From: Paludibacteraceae bacterium
Lineage (GTDB): Bacteria > Bacteroidota > Bacteroidia > Bacteroidales > Paludibacteraceae
Assembly (NCBI GenBank): GCA_017938155.1
Contig: JAGBCD010000041.1
Location: forward strand, 1 to 53,226
Length of the DNA: 53,226 nt
Direction of reading: 5' to 3'
This document shows positions 5,227 to 53,226 of the stretch, in pieces. Position 1 is the stretch's first letter. The number at the start of each line of letters is the position of its first letter. The position numbers and the translations under genes are program-made. Under the pieces are notes generated by a model. It made no database searches, was not told the origin of the DNA, and saw nothing but the letters and a program-made list of their open reading frames with translations.

Positions 5227-5273
5227 TGAGGTGAACCCCAAAAGTTAGACAAAAACTTTTGGGGTTCACCTCA
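5227..5273. mobile_element. perfect palindrome resembling two fused IS terminal repeats
   Basis: A 20-bp perfect inverted repeat (5227-5246 and 5254-5273) with a 7-nt loop. The arm reads TGAGGTGAACCCCAAAAGTT followed by AGAC. CCCAAAAGTT-AGAC is typical of IS3-family terminal repeats. No transposase lies between the arms, so this would be an end-to-end remnant or a minimal non-autonomous element. It abuts the 185-bp repeat array. Confidence 0.5.
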
Positions 5274-5665
5274 TAAAGGATGTCTTTTTGTTTTGAGCCA
5301 CTGGCCGAACTCTGACGCTCTGGTCAGTTTTGCTCATTGACTTGCTACGCAAGTGGGGGTCGCTGCTACTTTCCTTCGCTCCTCCCCACAAATTACAAAT
5401 TTGAGGGGACCCCTTTACGGTTCTCGTCCGTGACAGATGGCAAACAAAAAGACACCCATAAAGGATGTCTTTTTGCTTTGAGCCACTGGCCGAACTCTGA
5501 CGCTCTGGTCAGTTTTGCTCATTGACTTGCTGCGCAAGTGGGGGGCGCTGCTACTTTCCTTCGCTCCTCCCCACAAATTACAAATTTGAGGGGACCCCTT
5601 TACGGTTCTCGTCCGTGACAGATGGCAAACAAAAAGACACCCATAAAGGATGTCTTTTTGTTTTG
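5273..5665 (-). repeat. 185-bp tandem repeat built from the tRNA-Thr 3' end and terminator
   Basis: Two full 185-bp units precede the intact tRNA-Thr. Each holds the terminator hairpin (AAGACACCC/GGATGTCTT) and an 18-nt copy of the tRNA 3' end that breaks off within the T loop (5295-5312, 5480-5497; genuine tRNA 5665-5682), then about 110 bp of filler with GGTTCTCGTCC. The spacing is exactly 185 and 185. Open frames inside it are not genes. It resembles repeated half attachment sites at a tRNA T loop. Confidence 0.8.
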
Positions 5666-5738
<73 letters not shown>

Positions 5739-29704: not shown

Positions 29705-29737
29705 AAGCAACTCGGGTCATACTCACCCGAGTTGCTT
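29705..29737 (+). terminator. terminator after the small coiled-coil gene
   Basis: A 13-bp perfect stem AAGCAACTCGGGT / ACCCGAGTTGCTT with a 7-nt loop, 18 bp after the stop codon, followed by ATTTCT. Confidence 0.75.
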
Positions 29738-30366
29738 ATTTCTCACTTTCCCTAAAACATAGATGTTTTTGGGGCCCAATGGAGGGTTCTCATCCCGCAG
29801 GAGGGACACAAAAAAAGACACCCTTACGGATGTCTTTGGTGTACTCCCAGGGACTCGGCGTTCCAAATAATTTCGTCTATAGTTTTTACTGCGTAAAAAG
29901 GAGACTCTATTATTTCTCACTTTCCCTAAAACATAAAATGTTTTTGGGGCCCGATGGAGAGTTCTCGTCCCGCAGGAGGGACACAAAAAAAGACACCCTT
30001 ACGGATGTCTTTGGTGTACTCCCAGGGACTCGGCGTTCCAAATAATTTCATCTATAGTTTTTACTGCGTAAAAAGGAGACTCTATTATTTCTCACTTTCC
30101 CTAAAACATAAAATGTTTTTGGGGGCCCAATGGAGGGTTCTCATCCCGCAGGAGGGACACAAAAAAAAGACACCCTTGCGGATGTCTTTGGTGTCCTCCC
30201 AGGGATTCGGCGTTCCAAATAATTTCGTCTAAAGTTTTTACTACGTAAAAAGGAGACTCTATTATTTCTCACTTTCCCTAAAACATAAAATGTTTTTGGG
30301 GCCCAATGAAGGGTTCTCATCCCACAGGAGGGACACAAAAAAAGACACCCTTACGGATGTCTTTGG
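29737..30366 (-). repeat. ~175-bp tandem repeat built from the tRNA-Lys 3' end and terminator
   Basis: Four units start at 29737, 29911, 30086 and 30263 (174, 175, 177 bp); the fourth runs into the genuine tRNA-Lys. Each has GGGGCCC, GGTTCTC-TCCC, the terminator hairpin and a 20-nt copy of the tRNA 3' end (29838-29857, 30013-30032, 30190-30209) that stops at TTCG of the T loop. Unit 3 matches the tRNA tail exactly; units 1 and 2 carry two changes each. The open frames across it are by-products of the repeat. Confidence 0.85.
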
Positions 30367-30439
30367 TGTCCTCCCAGGGATTCGAACCCTGGACCCACTG
30401 ATTAAGAGTCAGTTACTCTACCAACTGAGCTAGGAAGAC
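30364..30439 (-). tRNA. tRNA-Lys(CTT) with encoded CCA
   Basis: Minus strand. Acceptor GTCTTCC/GGAGGAC, D stem GCTC/GAGT, anticodon stem ACTGA/TCAGT with loop CTCTTAA (anticodon CTT, codon AAG), T arm CAGGG-TTCGAAT-CCCTG, discriminator A, then CCA in the DNA (30364-30366). A promoter lies at 30475-30506 (TACTTTTG and TTTG, 20 bp apart on the minus strand). Confidence 0.95.
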
Positions 30440-49575: not shown

Positions 49576-50586
49576 GAGAGATAATCCTAACCCCCACCCT
49601 CGTTTCTTACTTGTATAACCAGGTTCGAATATACGGTTGTACATTCCACGTTCTATTCCTTTTCCTGTATCTGCGATATCCAGATACATCTTATCTTCAT
49701 CATGCGAAAGAGATAAGGAAATATGCCCTACCCCTTCCATTGCATCTACGGCATTTTTGATTATATTCTCCAGTACCCAAGCAAATAAAGGCACATTCAG
49801 TTCAACAAAACATGGAGAATCCATTTCTATGTGATATAGAATCTTAGTTGATGTACGTGTGCGCATGTACTCAATTGTATCCCGCACCACTTTTGTCACA
49901 TCTTCTCTAACTAATTCAGGTTCGGAGCCAATCTTTGAAAAACGTTCAGTGATCGTTTGTAAGCGTTGTATATCCACATCCATTTGAGGCAAAAGTTCAT
50001 CATTTGGATAACGAGACAAAAGCAATTCTTTCCAAGCATTTAATGAAGATATTGGCGTCCCCAATTGATGAGCTGTCTCCTTGCTCAACCCAACCCAAAC
50101 AAGATTTTCTTGACTGCGTTGGGCAGTATATAGAGAAATGACGACAATAACCAAAAACAAGAAGATGATACTAAACTCAATGTAAGGAAAAAAACGTAAT
50201 TGTGACAATAAAGTAGAATCATCATAATAGATATACTGAACCAAATCTTCAGAGATTCTTACTTCTATTGGTCCATGTAATTGAGTTACATCATGTATGG
50301 TATCCGTCACATTACGTGTCTTGAGTATTACGCCATCTGCGTCTACCACATAAACCGGTATCGTATTATTGCCCTCTATAATTTGAGATATAAATTGAAT
50401 ATCAGTACCCTCGTCTGCCAATATCAATTGATGAGTTGCTTCTGCCCATAATTCAATTCGTTTCTGTTCTTCTTGCGACAACTGACGAACCAAATGATTA
50501 ATAAACAAAAATGAAACGATAACGATCAATAAAGCAGCCGTTAATATTATTGTACCAAACTTATAAGAATGAATTTGAAAGCGCAT
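49465..50586 (-). CDS. membrane sensor histidine kinase
   Basis: 373 residues from the ATG at 50586 (MRFQIHSYKFGTIIL), which directly opens the first membrane helix as in related Bacteroidota kinases; an ATG at 50643 is possible. Two helices (~10-32 and ~140-163) enclose a ~110-residue periplasmic sensor. Then the phospho-acceptor motif SKETAHQLGTPISSL (H-x-x-G-T-P type), N box ENIIKNAVDAM, G boxes DIADTGKGIE and GWGLGLSLSKRI. No response regulator is adjacent. The last ~111 bp overlap ispE on the other strand. Confidence 0.88.
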   Translation of the reverse strand: MRFQIHSYKFGTIILTAALLIVIVSFLFINHLVRQLSQEEQKRIELWAEATHQLILADEGTDIQFISQIIEGNNTIPVYVVDADGVILKTRNVTDTIHDVTQLHGPIEVRISEDLVQYIYYDDSTLLSQLRFFPYIEFSIIFLFLVIVVISLYTAQRSQENLVWVGLSKETAHQLGTPISSLNAWKELLLSRYPNDELLPQMDVDIQRLQTITERFSKIGSEPELVREDVTKVVRDTIEYMRTRTSTKILYHIEMDSPCFVELNVPLFAWVLENIIKNAVDAMEGVGHISLSLSHDEDKMYLDIADTGKGIERGMYNRIFEPGYTSKKRGWGLGLSLSKRIIEDYHGGKLFVKSSQVGVGSTFRISMEESKDC

Positions 50587-50671
50587 ATCTCTTAACCATC
50601 TATATGCTATACAGTAAGCAATACATAAGGTATTAACCAACATAGCATAAATACTGCAAATGAATTTTTGA

Positions 50672-50703
50672 CAAAGGTAGTATTTTTTTTTGATATTCGC
50701 AAA
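50672..50703 (-). promoter_or_regulatory. promoter of the histidine kinase gene
   Basis: On the minus strand TTTG (plus 50700-50703), 20 bp, TACCTTTG (plus 50672-50679). Confidence 0.72.
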
Positions 50704-50792
50704 TTGATCGAATAAATCCGTTGTTTTGGCATATATCTTGCTTTTATTTATTCAAGGAACAGATGTTCCGAAACTTTTTAACCAAACCAACT

Positions 50793-51056
50793 ATGACAAA
50801 CGTAACCAAAATGCTATTGGCTCTTCTAGGAGGAGCGGTGGTAGGAGCTACAGCAGCATTGCTATTTGCTCCAAAAAGTGGCGCAGAATTGCGCTCCGAA
50901 ATCGCAGCAATCGCTCGCGAGAAGTACAAAAACCTCAATCTCGATGAAATCAACAAACTCGTGGACAAAGTGATGAGCCGCATCCGCAATGGTATGTGCA
51001 ACTGCCACTGCAAAGCCGACATCGAAGCCGCAGTAGAAGATGCCGCGAAGAAGTAA
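50793..51056 (+). CDS. YtxH-domain membrane protein
   Basis: 87 residues from the ATG at 50793. One N-terminal helix (LLALLGGAVVGATAALLFA) followed by the YtxH signature APKSGAELRSEI and an amphipathic helix. An unusual Cys cluster CNCHC sits near the end. YtxH proteins are general envelope-stress associated factors. It is paired with the downstream holin-like gene across a hairpin array, an arrangement common in Bacteroidota. Confidence 0.8.
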   Translation: MTNVTKMLLALLGGAVVGATAALLFAPKSGAELRSEIAAIAREKYKNLNLDEINKLVDKVMSRIRNGMCNCHCKADIEAAVEDAAKK

Positions 51057-51061
51057 CTTAG

Positions 51062-51213
51062 GCGCCGAAGGCGCGTTATATGTTCTTATGGGACGTTTCA
51101 TGCCTTCGGCGTTTCATCTACCTTTGGCACGTTATCAATAAACGTTAGTAACACGAAGTAGAAAACGTGCGCAGCACAGATAACGCAAAGCAAATAACGT
51201 CGGCATTGCCGAC
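51062..51213. repeat. mini-hairpin array 1 (covarying stems, GTTAYAT spacers)
   Basis: Left half: hairpins GCGCC-GAA-GGCGC, GTTC-n5-GGAC, GCC-TTC-GGC and CC-TTT-GG, each followed by GTTATAT, GTTTCAT or GTTATCA. Right half, opposite orientation: CATAAC-type spacers (TAAC) each followed by a hairpin, GTGC-GCA-GCAC (51167-51177), GC-AAA-GC and GTCGGC-ATT-GCCGAC (51199-51213). Stems differ but remain paired; loops are mostly 3 nt. It fills the whole gap between the YtxH and holin-like genes. A second array stands at 53038-53195. Confidence 0.65.
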
Positions 51214-51231
51214 CAAAAAAAACGTTTAACT

Positions 51232-51723
51232 ATGAAAGATTTTTACAATCAGCTACTTGCTGATATTCAAGCATATATTAAGTCACAATTTCAACTGCTG
51301 AAAGTGCAGAGCATAGAGCAGACAAGTCAGTTGCTAGGGCTCATTATTGCGCTATTCGCTATTATGGCAATCGTGGTTGTCGGACTCATTTTCTTGGCGA
51401 TTGCTTTGGCTGCTTGGCTCGAACAGTGGCTGCCAATGTGGGCTTCGTATCTAGTGATTGCTGGAGGCATGGGATTGATTGCGTTAGGGGTGTATTGGGG
51501 CAGACGGTTGTGGTTTGTGCGCCCAATAGAAAAGCACCTTAGTGAAGTCATAATGGATAATCCTGCTCCACTGAAGCAACAGAAACAATTCATTGAAAAC
51601 CAATCTGCTACGCAGCGTGAGCTATTGGAGCGCGACATCGCATCGGTGCAACGCGACTGGGCACAGGTGCAGCAACTCTTCGCACTTTTGCGAGAAATCA
51701 TTTCTCCTAAGAAGGAGGTATAG
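51232..51723 (+). CDS. phage-holin-superfamily-like envelope protein
   Basis: 163 residues. A leading amphipathic helix (FYNQLLADIQAYIKSQFQLL), two membrane helices (LLGLIIALFAIMAIVVVGLIFLA split by a short gap, and YLVIAGGMGLIALGVYW), and a charged C-terminal coiled segment (RELLERDIASVQRDWAQVQ). This is the pattern of the holin-X-like family (PF07332), normally chromosomal and not phage-derived. Paired with YtxH upstream; role unknown. Confidence 0.78.
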   Translation: MKDFYNQLLADIQAYIKSQFQLLKVQSIEQTSQLLGLIIALFAIMAIVVVGLIFLAIALAAWLEQWLPMWASYLVIAGGMGLIALGVYWGRRLWFVRPIEKHLSEVIMDNPAPLKQQKQFIENQSATQRELLERDIASVQRDWAQVQQLFALLREIISPKKEV

Positions 51724-51799
51724 TTCTTCGCGATTGATGGCTATCATTCAACAGCACCGTTCGAAATGGGCGATGCTGTTTTGGTAGGTAGTAGTTTTC

Positions 51800-51827
51800 C
51801 TTTTCACTTTTCACTTTTCACTTTTCA
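51800..51827. repeat. heptanucleotide tandem repeat (CTTTTCA) x4
   Basis: Four perfect 7-bp units in the gap after the holin-like gene. Non-coding. Confidence 0.8.
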
Positions 51828-51869
51828 GTTTTTCGGTGTGTCTCTATATGTTATAGGGATGCTGAATAC

Positions 51870-52103
51870 TCAGCGTTTTAGTGGTTTTGTGCCGAAAGTT
51901 TCCGGCGAGAAACGCTGAGGACGTTGGCTGCGCTGCGCATCCGTGAGGATCTGCGTCAGTTCCGCAGTGTTGGTGTAATCGTAATTAGGGAAACGATACA
52001 CCGCCAAGGTGTCATGAACAATCATGCCCTGCTTCAGATACTCTTTGGTCCTTCTTTGGTCTTTTACCCGATAGAGATAAAGAAGGTACAGGGGAAGGAA
52101 ATC
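51870..52103 (-). pseudogene. C-terminal coding remnant, family unknown
   Basis: On the minus strand a frame without a start codon stays open for 77 codons to TGA at 51870: hydrophobic start (FLPLYLLYLYRVKD), then RTKEYLKQGMIVHDTLAVYR, FPNYDYTNTAELTQILTDAQ and a basic end (KPLKR). GC is higher than in the flanks and the composition is protein-like, so it is probably the end of a deleted gene. The plus-strand frame over the same DNA (51924-52124) has no protein-like character. Confidence 0.5.
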
Positions 52104-52243
52104 TTAATAAATAGCACTTTTTAGGTGAGTGCAATATATTGACAACTGGTTTCTATTAGAGAGGAAGAGTAAACGCAAATTTGATAATCGTAAGTGGCAA
52201 AAAGGGATTAAAAAATAATAAAAAAATAATTAATAATTATTTA

Positions 52244-52275
52244 TTTGTACATGTCGCAAATATTTAGTACTTTTG
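52244..52275 (+). promoter_or_regulatory. promoter of the zeta-type module
   Basis: TTTG 52244-52247, 20 bp, TACTTTTG 52268-52275, only 17 bp before the ATG, giving a very short leader. Confidence 0.72.
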
Positions 52276-52292
52276 TCCGCTAAGTTTGGGTT

Positions 52293-52856
52293 ATGGGCAA
52301 AACACTCTACATAATAGCAGGTTGCAATGGCGCGGGAAAGACAACTGCTTCATACACTATTCTGCCTGAGATATGGCACTGCCAAGAATTTGTGAATGCC
52401 GATGAGATTGCGCGCGGTCTTTCGCCTCTTAATCCCAATAGTATGGCGGTGCAAGCAGGACGAATCATGCTACAGCGTATTGAGGAATTGTTGAAACAAG
52501 GAGTGTCGTTTTCAATAGAAACAACGCTGGCTACTCGCTCATACGTTCAGTTAGTCAAACGCGCTCAAGCAGAAGGATACACCGTAAATCTGCTGTTCTT
52601 CTGGTTAAAAAACCCAGAGATGGCGGTACAGCGTGTGGCAAAACGAGTTAGTAACGGAGGACATGACATTCCAGTAGATGTGATACACAGACGTTATATA
52701 TTGGGATTGCAAAACTTCTTTTTTCTGTACAAAGATATAGTGGATGTATGGACATTGGTAGATAATGCAAGTAATCCGCGTCGCGTGATAGCAACAGATG
52801 AAGAAATAAAGGATGTAGAACTTTATAACAAAATTGAAGCTTATGTCAACAACTGA
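52293..52856 (+). CDS. zeta-toxin-family P-loop kinase
   Basis: 187 residues. Walker A IAGCNGAGKTTASYTIL, FVNADEIARGLSP (conserved Asp), FSIETTLATRSYV, and a lid-like KRVSNGGHDIP followed by IHRRYILGL. Zeta/PezT toxins phosphorylate UDP-N-acetylglucosamine and poison cell-wall synthesis; related chromosomal proteins may act on other small molecules. No epsilon antitoxin precedes it. A small gene overlaps its end by 14 bp. Confidence 0.8.
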   Translation: MGKTLYIIAGCNGAGKTTASYTILPEIWHCQEFVNADEIARGLSPLNPNSMAVQAGRIMLQRIEELLKQGVSFSIETTLATRSYVQLVKRAQAEGYTVNLLFFWLKNPEMAVQRVAKRVSNGGHDIPVDVIHRRYILGLQNFFFLYKDIVDVWTLVDNASNPRRVIATDEEIKDVELYNKIEAYVNN

Positions 52857-53037
52857 AAAGCAACAATACCAAGCAGACCTTTTGCGTGGTCTGGAATTGG
52901 CGGAGTATCGTATGCTTCGAGATAAAGCGATGCATAATGAGACAATTATTCAAGGGGATGAAGAAAATGGATGGCGAGAGGTGTCCGCTCGCGAAGTGTT
53001 CGTGAAACTATACAACGAGCCAGTACCAACTTTTTGA
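52843..53037 (+). CDS. small protein co-encoded with the zeta-type kinase, candidate antitoxin
   Basis: 64 residues from the ATG at 52843 (MSTTEKQQYQADLLRGLELA), overlapping the kinase gene by 14 bp. Acidic and helical with a C-terminal WREVSAREVFVKLYNEP. Not related to epsilon or PezA as far as I can see. Tight coupling suggests that it works with the kinase, either as antitoxin in reversed gene order or as an accessory subunit. Its stop codon runs directly into hairpin array 2. Confidence 0.65.
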   Translation: MSTTEKQQYQADLLRGLELAEYRMLRDKAMHNETIIQGDEENGWREVSAREVFVKLYNEPVPTF

Positions 53038-53195
53038 GTTACATGCCCAAGGGGCGTTATATGCCTTTGGCGTTACATATCCTACAAGGATGTTACATGT
53101 CTTCGACGTTGTTAGGTTATATGCCCTCTAGGCGTTAATAACAAGGATAACGCGAAGCTGACAACGTCGCAAAGCGATAGATAACGTGAAGTGAA
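53038..53195. repeat. mini-hairpin array 2 (covarying stems, GTTAYAT spacers)
   Basis: Starts one base after a stop codon with GTTACAT. Units: GCCC-AAG-GGGC (53045-53055), GCC-TTT-GGC (53063-53071), ATCCT-ACA-AGGAT (53079-53091), GTC-TTC-GAC (53099-53107), GCC-CTCTA-GGC (53123-53133), each followed by GTTATAT, GTTACAT or a variant. Right half in opposite orientation: ATAAC then GC-GAA-GC (53152-53158) and TCGC-AAA-GCGA (53167-53177). It continues close to the window end, so its limit is unknown. Confidence 0.65.
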
Positions 53196-53226
53196 ACAAA
53201 ACAAAATCAAAGAGAATACGAAAACG

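Follow-up and report, generated by a model that had tools for sequence, protein, structure and literature searches.

Arrays of mini-hairpins strung on conserved linkers in a Paludibacteraceae contig are probable copies of a dispersed family of palindromic mini-elements

Two arrays of short hairpins lie at positions 51062-51213 and 53038-53195 of a 53,226-nt stretch of DNA from a Paludibacteraceae bacterium (the window, which is the whole contig G000:C38 of a 1.96 Mb draft genome in 45 contigs). Both had been described in an initial annotation made from the sequence, and both were confirmed here, with five perfect units each. We consider these arrays to be, probably, copies of a dispersed family of palindromic mini-elements of gut bacteria that comprises several linker families. 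The observations behind this are that linker words recur with hairpins at dispersed loci, that arrays switch family or are present in one genome and absent from another at orthologous sites, that copies lie in frame inside protein genes, and that the pairing of the stems is kept. Throughout, G000 denotes the window's own genome and the other G numbers denote genomes compared with it; the genomes are drafts, the gene calls are mechanical and several of the counts were made by eye.

Each unit joins a hairpin, whose stem is free in sequence and whose loop is usually 3 nt, to a conserved linker of about 7-10 nt. In the window, units were counted as perfect hairpins flush to GTT (hairpin first) or to AAC (hairpin second), and the counts were compared with those in 2000 dinucleotide shuffles (positions in Table 1). 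The left array (51055-51231) has 5 units against a shuffle mean of 0.67, with 5 reached in 1/2000 shuffles, and the right array (53031-53205) has 5 units against a mean of 0.30, with 5 reached in 0/2000; the initial annotation had asked for such a comparison, and shuffles of equal composition indeed give far fewer units. The linkers of the left halves read GTTATAT, GTTACAT or GTTTCAT, i.e., the two spacer words described initially are both present and a third is also used. Since the linkers of the right halves read AGATAAC, AAATAAC, GGATAAC, GACAAC and similar, only the (T)AAC/GTT(A) part is mirrored between halves, and not the whole word as had been thought. The stems were also said to stay complementary, which is true of the perfect hairpins, whereas G.T pairs or mismatches occur in some others (GTTCTTATGGGAC; CTACCTTTGGCAC).

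Pairing was analyzed across units that had been anchored by their linkers alone (GTT[ATG][CT]NT, at least three in a row, with misses kept), a scan that gave 38 runs and 114 segments, 76 of them distinct. In the distinct segments, 258/340 symmetric positions are Watson-Crick pairs, compared to a letter-shuffle mean of 96 and maximum of 117; 44 of the 76 are fully paired (letter-shuffle mean 1.1, maximum 4), and a further 15 miss one pair. In an alignment of thirty 13-nt units (A1), in which three chance or misparsed rows (L075:1529, L090 and L255) were retained, 88% of stem cells are paired relative to 62% in shuffled rows, 40 cells are changed on both sides relative to 13.7 (sd 3.0), and the covariation score is 0.685 relative to 0.250, with 0/500 shuffles as high on each of these measures. 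All 5 stem pairs of the 13-nt units show changes on both sides, and the signal is lost once the partner is displaced by 1 to 3 columns. The pairing of the segments and the covariation in A1 thus demonstrate that linker letters are kept and that stem letters are free provided that they pair. For a second family, with the linker word CTGTAGATCG, the form CTGTAGATC-G..C-TGTAG yielded 34 distinct stems; 126/139 pairs hold, compared to 66 after shuffling (maximum 78), and 27/34 stems are fully paired, compared to 2.4 (maximum 6).

The hairpin-linker build recurs well beyond the window. Among 178 genomes of the same genus, the two-linker GTTAYAT pattern was found at 43 places in 17 genomes, and inspection by eye placed a hairpin between the linkers at 36 of the 43, in ten genomes (G000, G014, G025, G053, G057, G060, G101, G105, G176 and G449). 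An order-level search outside the genus returned 39 places in 28/295 genomes against 38 in the backward control, i.e., background, and the order-level places with a hairpin between the words, again by eye, were confined to the window's own genome and one place in G396. Runs of at least 3 units pointing the same way number 22 in a 797 kb sample (41 stretches from six genomes, some picked for holding arrays), compared to 0, 0, 0, 1 and 0 in five dinucleotide-shuffled copies; this comparison supersedes an early cluster test against reversed sequence (27 real, 12 reversed). A looser three-linker search, which matched 39/151 genus genomes and in many genomes matched the control too, was used solely to locate loci, and a word-blind detector of mirrored arrays was noisy and served as a pointer only. 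A viral scan with the two-linker pattern listed 31 loci, from which nothing was drawn.

Other linker words were called from a word-blind look at 369 gaps together with loci read by eye: these are CTGTAGATCG, TGTTAGACC, TTTAGAGGACG, CCTATAG and TTGAAC, the last by eye only. The word CTGTAGATCG has 104 matches in 16/178 genomes of the genus and none in the control. Relative to reversed words in the sampled stretches, CTGTAGATCG was counted 14 times against 0, CTGTTAGACCG 8 against 0 and TTTAGAGGACG 11 against 2; CTATAGGACG, at 14 against 8, is poorly separated from its control and was therefore counted as a weak word. The families are alike in build and are set apart by the linker word. We found no description of such arrays in Bacteroidales in the literature, most subscription papers being outside the search.

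At orthologous gene borders, relatives differ in the presence, the family and the unit number of the array at one gap. Behind ychF, GTTAYAT arrays stand in G176 and G060 and TGTAGATC arrays in G014 and G053 (also before ychF), while G449 has TGTTAGACC-type repeats, G025, G057 and G101 have other short repeats, and G038 has an 11-nt gap. Behind the gene for methylmalonyl-CoA epimerase there is a GTTAYAT array in G176, a TTGAAC array in G449 and another hairpin repeat in G014; the gaps of G101, G455 and G038 are short and plain, and G053 is without an array. Behind the small ORF (open reading frame) linked to the zeta-toxin gene, the arrays of the window and of G176 start with an identical hairpin, and G101 and G455 have no array; the alignment is poor where the array is absent, and this comparison rests on the sequences themselves. 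Related DNA matches the small ORF at 93% identity in G101, 82% in G176 and 81% in G455, and the zeta gene of the window is 94% identical to that of the array-free G101 and 85% identical to that of the array-bearing G176. At one site the window and G176 differ in unit number. The arrays also have a polarity. Half-arrays within 130 nt of each other, one of them with at least 3 units, converge in 11/11 cases (the window arrays being outside this count), and of 18 runs judged by eye, 17 turn their GTT side away from the nearer gene and one, L183, does not; these 18 come from the 22 runs of at least 3 units, the other 4 lying within an ORF or at the end of a contig. This outward rule applies equally to arrays that follow a stop codon and to arrays that precede a start codon, an argument against a strand-specific role in RNA.

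Arrays also lie in frame inside conserved proteins. Twenty CTGTAGATCG stretches were fetched (16 from G183, 3 from G101, 1 from G455), and the arrays in 15 of them overlap a mechanically called ORF. Not all of these ORFs are credible. Seven array-bearing proteins were run against Pfam, and 7/7 match a family: radical SAM/SPASM, EPSP synthase, glycogen synthase, NlpC/P60, ABC ATPase, an RNase H1 N-domain with RNase H, and a VapE-like domain. Between a piece ending DEPTTGLDPN and one starting near ATVILSTHIL, both weakly scoring, the ABC protein is about 24-25 residues longer than ABCA3. The linker between the two domains of RNase H, readable in 20/30 loci, holds TGTAGATC arrays in five genomes (G455, G101, G176, G183 and G111), a variant in G038, a CCTATAG-type repeat in G014 and an ambiguous sequence in G105, and no such array in G139, G448, G053, G457, G449, G057 or the outgroups. 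A tandem run of eleven CTGTAGA words occurs at 1358-1601 of L315 (G183:C7), inside an ORF that resembles the VapE-like ORF of L318, and encodes PVDGRSAMPVDGRSATP... repeats.

The DNA ligase LigA carries the window's own family, in frame, in G101, G455, G176 and G105. The array sits in a loop about 32 residues longer than that of PDB 2owo (query 73-108, chain 65-68), which we take to be the LigA of E. coli. LigA was matched in 22/24 genomes and the loop was read in 17 (unread: G449, G125, G152, G166 and G022). It contains a TTTAGAGGACG-type array in G014 and other sequence in G000, G038 and G457, it is short in the outgroups G001, G011 and G013, and it is filled by purine-rich GGCGAAAGG-type repeats in G025, G053, G057, G111, G139 and G448. 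The purine-rich repeats of this loop (such as GGCGAAAGGCGAAAGGTTAAAGG; L361-L363, L365, L366 and L368) sit where other species have hairpin arrays, and similar repeats fill gene gaps too (L224 and L225); they are perhaps a further, non-hairpin repeat family.

The initial annotation had taken the arrays for borders of a YtxH/holin/zeta segment, with a possible role as boundary element or RNA scaffold. However, the left array occupies the gap that separates the YtxH and Phage_holin_3_6 genes, and the right one lies behind the zeta-toxin gene and its small ORF, 31 nt from the contig end (53226). In relatives the same arrays occur both within genes and at the borders of unrelated ones, which points to a dispersed repeat family and not to a local boundary or scaffold, and these two roles were rejected.

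Orthologous copies were compared at two sites. In the YtxH-holin gap an array is present in G000, G101, G105 and G176, is shortened and partly different in G053, and is absent from G025 and G038. Over 59 nt the G053 array matches the window at 91.5% identity, compared to 73-75% for its flanking genes, which counts in favour of the dispersed-family reading. The alignment of the five rows (A2) is 95.3% paired: there is one double change, from GCGAAGC to ACGAAGT in the window, two changes on one side only convert between standard and wobble pairing, three pairs have a single unpaired cell, and an A.C position is unpaired in all four rows with letters there. The four orthologous LigA arrays (A4) are 100% paired, with one double change in G455, from GTCGC/GCGAC to GTTGC/GCAAC, that also turns an R into a Q. 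Compensation between orthologous arrays was thus seen twice and is statistically weak, and the strong covariation is that between units. The early claim that pairing is kept despite changed letters is accordingly well borne out among the units, whereas between orthologues it comes down to these two changes, with neither alignment above shuffle.

How might such a family persist? The elements would spread as DNA via a folded single-stranded intermediate, and passage through such an intermediate could explain why pairing is kept while stem letters drift. Recombination between linkers would change the number of units, copies would survive where they do little harm, i.e., at gene borders and in the loops and linkers of proteins, and a function specific to each gene would not be needed. 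Of the three roles guessed at initially, the mobile-DNA one, a target for a transposase or integrase, fits best. A Y1/RAYT transposase (RAYT, REP-associated tyrosine transposase; REP, repetitive extragenic palindrome) was not found in the window's own genome.

Several results weigh against the account of a dispersed, mobile family. Transposition itself was not seen, a target-site duplication and a fixed element end were not established, and occupied and empty sites compared by eye gave no clear target-site duplication, the sites having diverged. The Y1/RAYT transposase family PF01797 was not found in the window's own genome (draft, 1.96 Mb) and, among 12 relatives, was matched in 3, with 2 above the cut-off, and not found in the other 9 drafts, including G014, G053, G060, G101 and G176. 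The linker pattern alone is not specific: the anchor scan gave 38 real runs against 22 in reversed sequence, and the two-linker pattern gave its 43 places in the genus against 22 in the backward control. In A1, the count of doubly changed pairs (5, shuffled 3.9; 103/500 shuffles) and the count of pair types (13 against 11.1; 68/500) are not above shuffle, and neither is the one compensated change of A2 (97/500) or that of A4 (108/500). Finally, in the closer genomes the YtxH-holin gap is 91-93% identical, compared to 93-98% for the genes, and such conservation near the level of the genes could mean that the gap has a function.

This last point bears on an alternative that we regard as unlikely, although it is the strongest of the rivals, namely that the arrays are functional RNA. 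They would be transcribed in operon gaps as intercistronic or leader RNA, acting as an mRNA stabiliser, a processing site or a protein-binding string, with the single-stranded linkers as binding sites. Consistent with this, arrays span gaps from stop codon to start codon, conservation of the orthologous gap comes close to that of the genes, wobble pairs are retained in GTTCYTATGGRAC among orthologues, and the two window arrays fold better than shuffles as RNA (z-scores -3.02 and -2.98) and more weakly as DNA (z -1.96 to -2.57). The minimum-energy fold of either array mixes in longer pairings and is not a plain row of mini-hairpins. An RNA role fits poorly with gaps that hold another family or no array in relatives, and with copies inside coding sequence. 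A hand count of imperfect pairs in the mRNA sense found 9 G.T against 3 A.C in the linker-anchored segments, with one unit unassigned, or 9 against 5 when two further A.C positions from A2 are included, i.e., no clear RNA bias. A known structured RNA family was rejected, as the covariance models of Rfam 15 gave 0 matches up to E 1 in window positions 50000-53226.

A purely mutational origin, which appears more improbable still, would mean that units arise and become uniform in place by slippage and template switching at small palindromes, processes that would also correct the stems to perfect palindromes, with no movement and no selection. The difference in unit number between the window and G176 would follow from such local growth, as would pure tandem expansions (the 19-nt unit GTTTCATCGCCTTGCGGCT at G000:C37 and the repeated CTGTAGATGGTAGATCGGCTATGC-like units in L315), and perfect stems with drifting letters fit correction from arm to arm. 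However, identical linker words accompany hairpins in different species and at loci unrelated to each other, and relatives lack the array at orthologous sites; both observations require dispersal beyond local growth. Hardly credible is the remaining alternative, that the arrays are classical REP/BIME elements (BIME, bacterial interspersed mosaic element) mobilised by a RAYT (Y1 HUH) transposase: a hairpin with a short unpaired tag, in inverted pairs and mostly in gene gaps, is the build of GTAG/CGTC REPs in the excerpt available of their description (PMC3733652), but the GTTAYAT linker lacks GTAG and CGTC, the stem letters are not conserved, and mobilisation by a PF01797-type RAYT, for which the search above gives no support in the own genome and 9/12 relatives, fails unless missing parts of the drafts hide one in each genome.

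Returning to the dispersed mini-elements, a bolder version, which we put forward as doubtful, is that one machinery of a Bacteroidales clade builds and moves the hairpin-linker strings. It would recognise a folded hairpin of any sequence together with a linker word, and as linker words turned over between species, the result would be a set of mini-elements that can replace one another, invade genes and add short peptides to essential enzymes. If the mini-elements are what we propose, in-frame invasion of genes by palindromic mini-elements would not be peculiar to Rickettsia, and an uncultured lineage of Bacteroidales would show it too, in several coexisting families and with the rule reversed, i.e., a constant linker and a free stem. 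It would provide a route by which linker peptides enter conserved enzymes, and would explain the odd structured operon gaps of these genomes, which could be mistaken for regulatory RNAs. The pairs of occupied and empty sites in ligA, RNase H and operon gaps offer natural material for testing what moves or copies the elements.

Table 1. Arrays and neighbouring genes at the end of the window.
Feature	Coordinates	Strand	Remarks
YtxH-like protein gene	50793..51056	+	Pfam PF12732, E 1.5e-11; stop codon 5 nt ahead of first hairpin
Left array, half A	51062..51130	+	Stems GCGCC/GGCGC, GTTCT/GGGAC (two T.G pairs), GCC/GGC, CTACC/GGCAC (imperfect); linkers GTTATAT / GTTTCAT
Left array, half B	51153..51213	+	AAC-linked hairpins ACGAAGT, GTGCGCAGCAC, GCAAAGC, GTCGGCATTGCCGAC; ends 18 nt before holin gene start
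Left array, perfect flush hairpins	51062-51074, 51102-51110, 51167-51177, 51185-51191, 51199-51213		
Small membrane protein gene, Phage_holin_3_6 family	51232..51723	+	Pfam PF07332, E 7e-11
Zeta-toxin-like kinase gene	52293..52856	+	Pfam PF06414, E 6.5e-12
Small ORF overlapping the end of the zeta gene	52834..53037	+	ORF call, without Pfam match; right array directly after stop codon
Right array, half A	53038..53133	+	Five hairpins; linkers GTTACAT / GTTATAT; recurring junction GTTGTTAGGTTATAT
Right array, half B	53149..53195	+	Hairpins AACGCGAAGC.., AACGTCGCAAAGCGAT.., AACGTGAAGTG..
Right array, perfect flush hairpins	53045-53055, 53063-53071, 53079-53091, 53099-53107, 53152-53158		

The named relatives of a kinase gene of the window include Paludibacteraceae and other Bacteroidales metagenome-assembled genomes, and a plasmid relative was looked for and none was found. 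In the part of C38 at 50793-53226, the YtxH and holin genes show 93-98% DNA identity to G101, G105 and G176. Other G000 markers are far from these three genomes in protein (YchF 87%, RNase H 63%, LigA 68%, partial), and the G000 epimerase, on C28, is again at 99%. Judged from these identities, the G000 bin may be mixed, or contig C38 may have been acquired horizontally; a contig foreign to its bin would affect whose element this is, not what element it is. Other repeats were observed as well. At G000:C37:20718-21008 (L088), a 19-nt unit GTTTCATCGCCTTGCGGC(T/A) in about 16 tandem copies looks like a linker-hairpin unit in pure tandem expansion. The window has tandem repeats at 29736-30384 (period 175 nt, 3.7 copies, 95% matches) and 5267-5682 (185 nt, 2.2 copies, 97%). 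A longer dispersed repeat in G000, G060, G101 and G176, which has TTCGGCA pairs at one of its ends and the inverted pair TTCGGCA..TGCCGAA inside (L149 5613-6114, L167 12570-13002, L177 9883-10532 and 11832-12144, L181 10393-10910), looks like a separate family resembling miniature inverted-repeat transposable elements (MITEs).

The initial statement that no named element of this kind exists was too strong, since two named kinds, REP/BIME elements and Rickettsia palindromic elements, come close. Comparable too are the hairpin elements of sponge mitochondrial DNA and the palindromic repeats of Volvox organelles, both portrayed, in the parts of the reports available, as short hairpins that are scattered through gene gaps and vary between close relatives (PMC2800124; PMC2670323). 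In the sponge elements the stems are conserved and the loops vary, according to the same excerpt (PMC2800124), whereas here it is the stems that vary, and both of these cases are from organelles and not from bacteria. Within the Bacteroidales, the BrickBuilt MITE of Porphyromonas gingivalis forms arrays of short units between genes, which the accessible sections describe as 23-nt repeats in tandem that lack spacers, have small inverted repeats at their ends and are always intergenic (PMC4596501); the units here are a linker plus a hairpin of variable sequence, not a spacer-less 23-nt tandem. REP/BIME elements, as outlined in the excerpt of their report, consist of a hairpin with an unpaired tag and occur as inverted pairs and clusters in gene gaps, in families distinguished by the sequence of stem and loop, some with variant units, the GTAG REPs being linked to RAYTs (PMC3733652). 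The tag-plus-hairpin build and the inverted pairs are shared with the arrays. The differences are that the linker is conserved and the stems are free here, that a RAYT was not found in most genomes searched, and that the window linkers GTTAYAT/GTTTCAT lack a GTAG or CGTC tag, although the second family, CTGTAGATCG, does contain GTAG.

Rickettsia palindromic elements (RPEs) are elements for which we know of no transposase. They comprise several short palindromic repeat families that are dispersed and lie in frame inside unrelated genes, and are about 150 bp long with a conserved encoded peptide, as stated in the available part of their description (PMC10969869). The hairpin arrays share with them the dispersal at many loci in several families (GTTAYAT in 10/178 genomes by eye, CTGTAGATCG in 16/178) and the in-frame presence in unrelated genes (LigA, RNase H and six further Pfam-recognised proteins). 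Compared by description, the arrays differ in being variable strings in which a constant linker joins hairpins of 7-15 nt whose stems are free, and in belonging to Bacteroidales. In our best reading of these comparisons, the window arrays would work as RPEs and REP/BIME arrays do.

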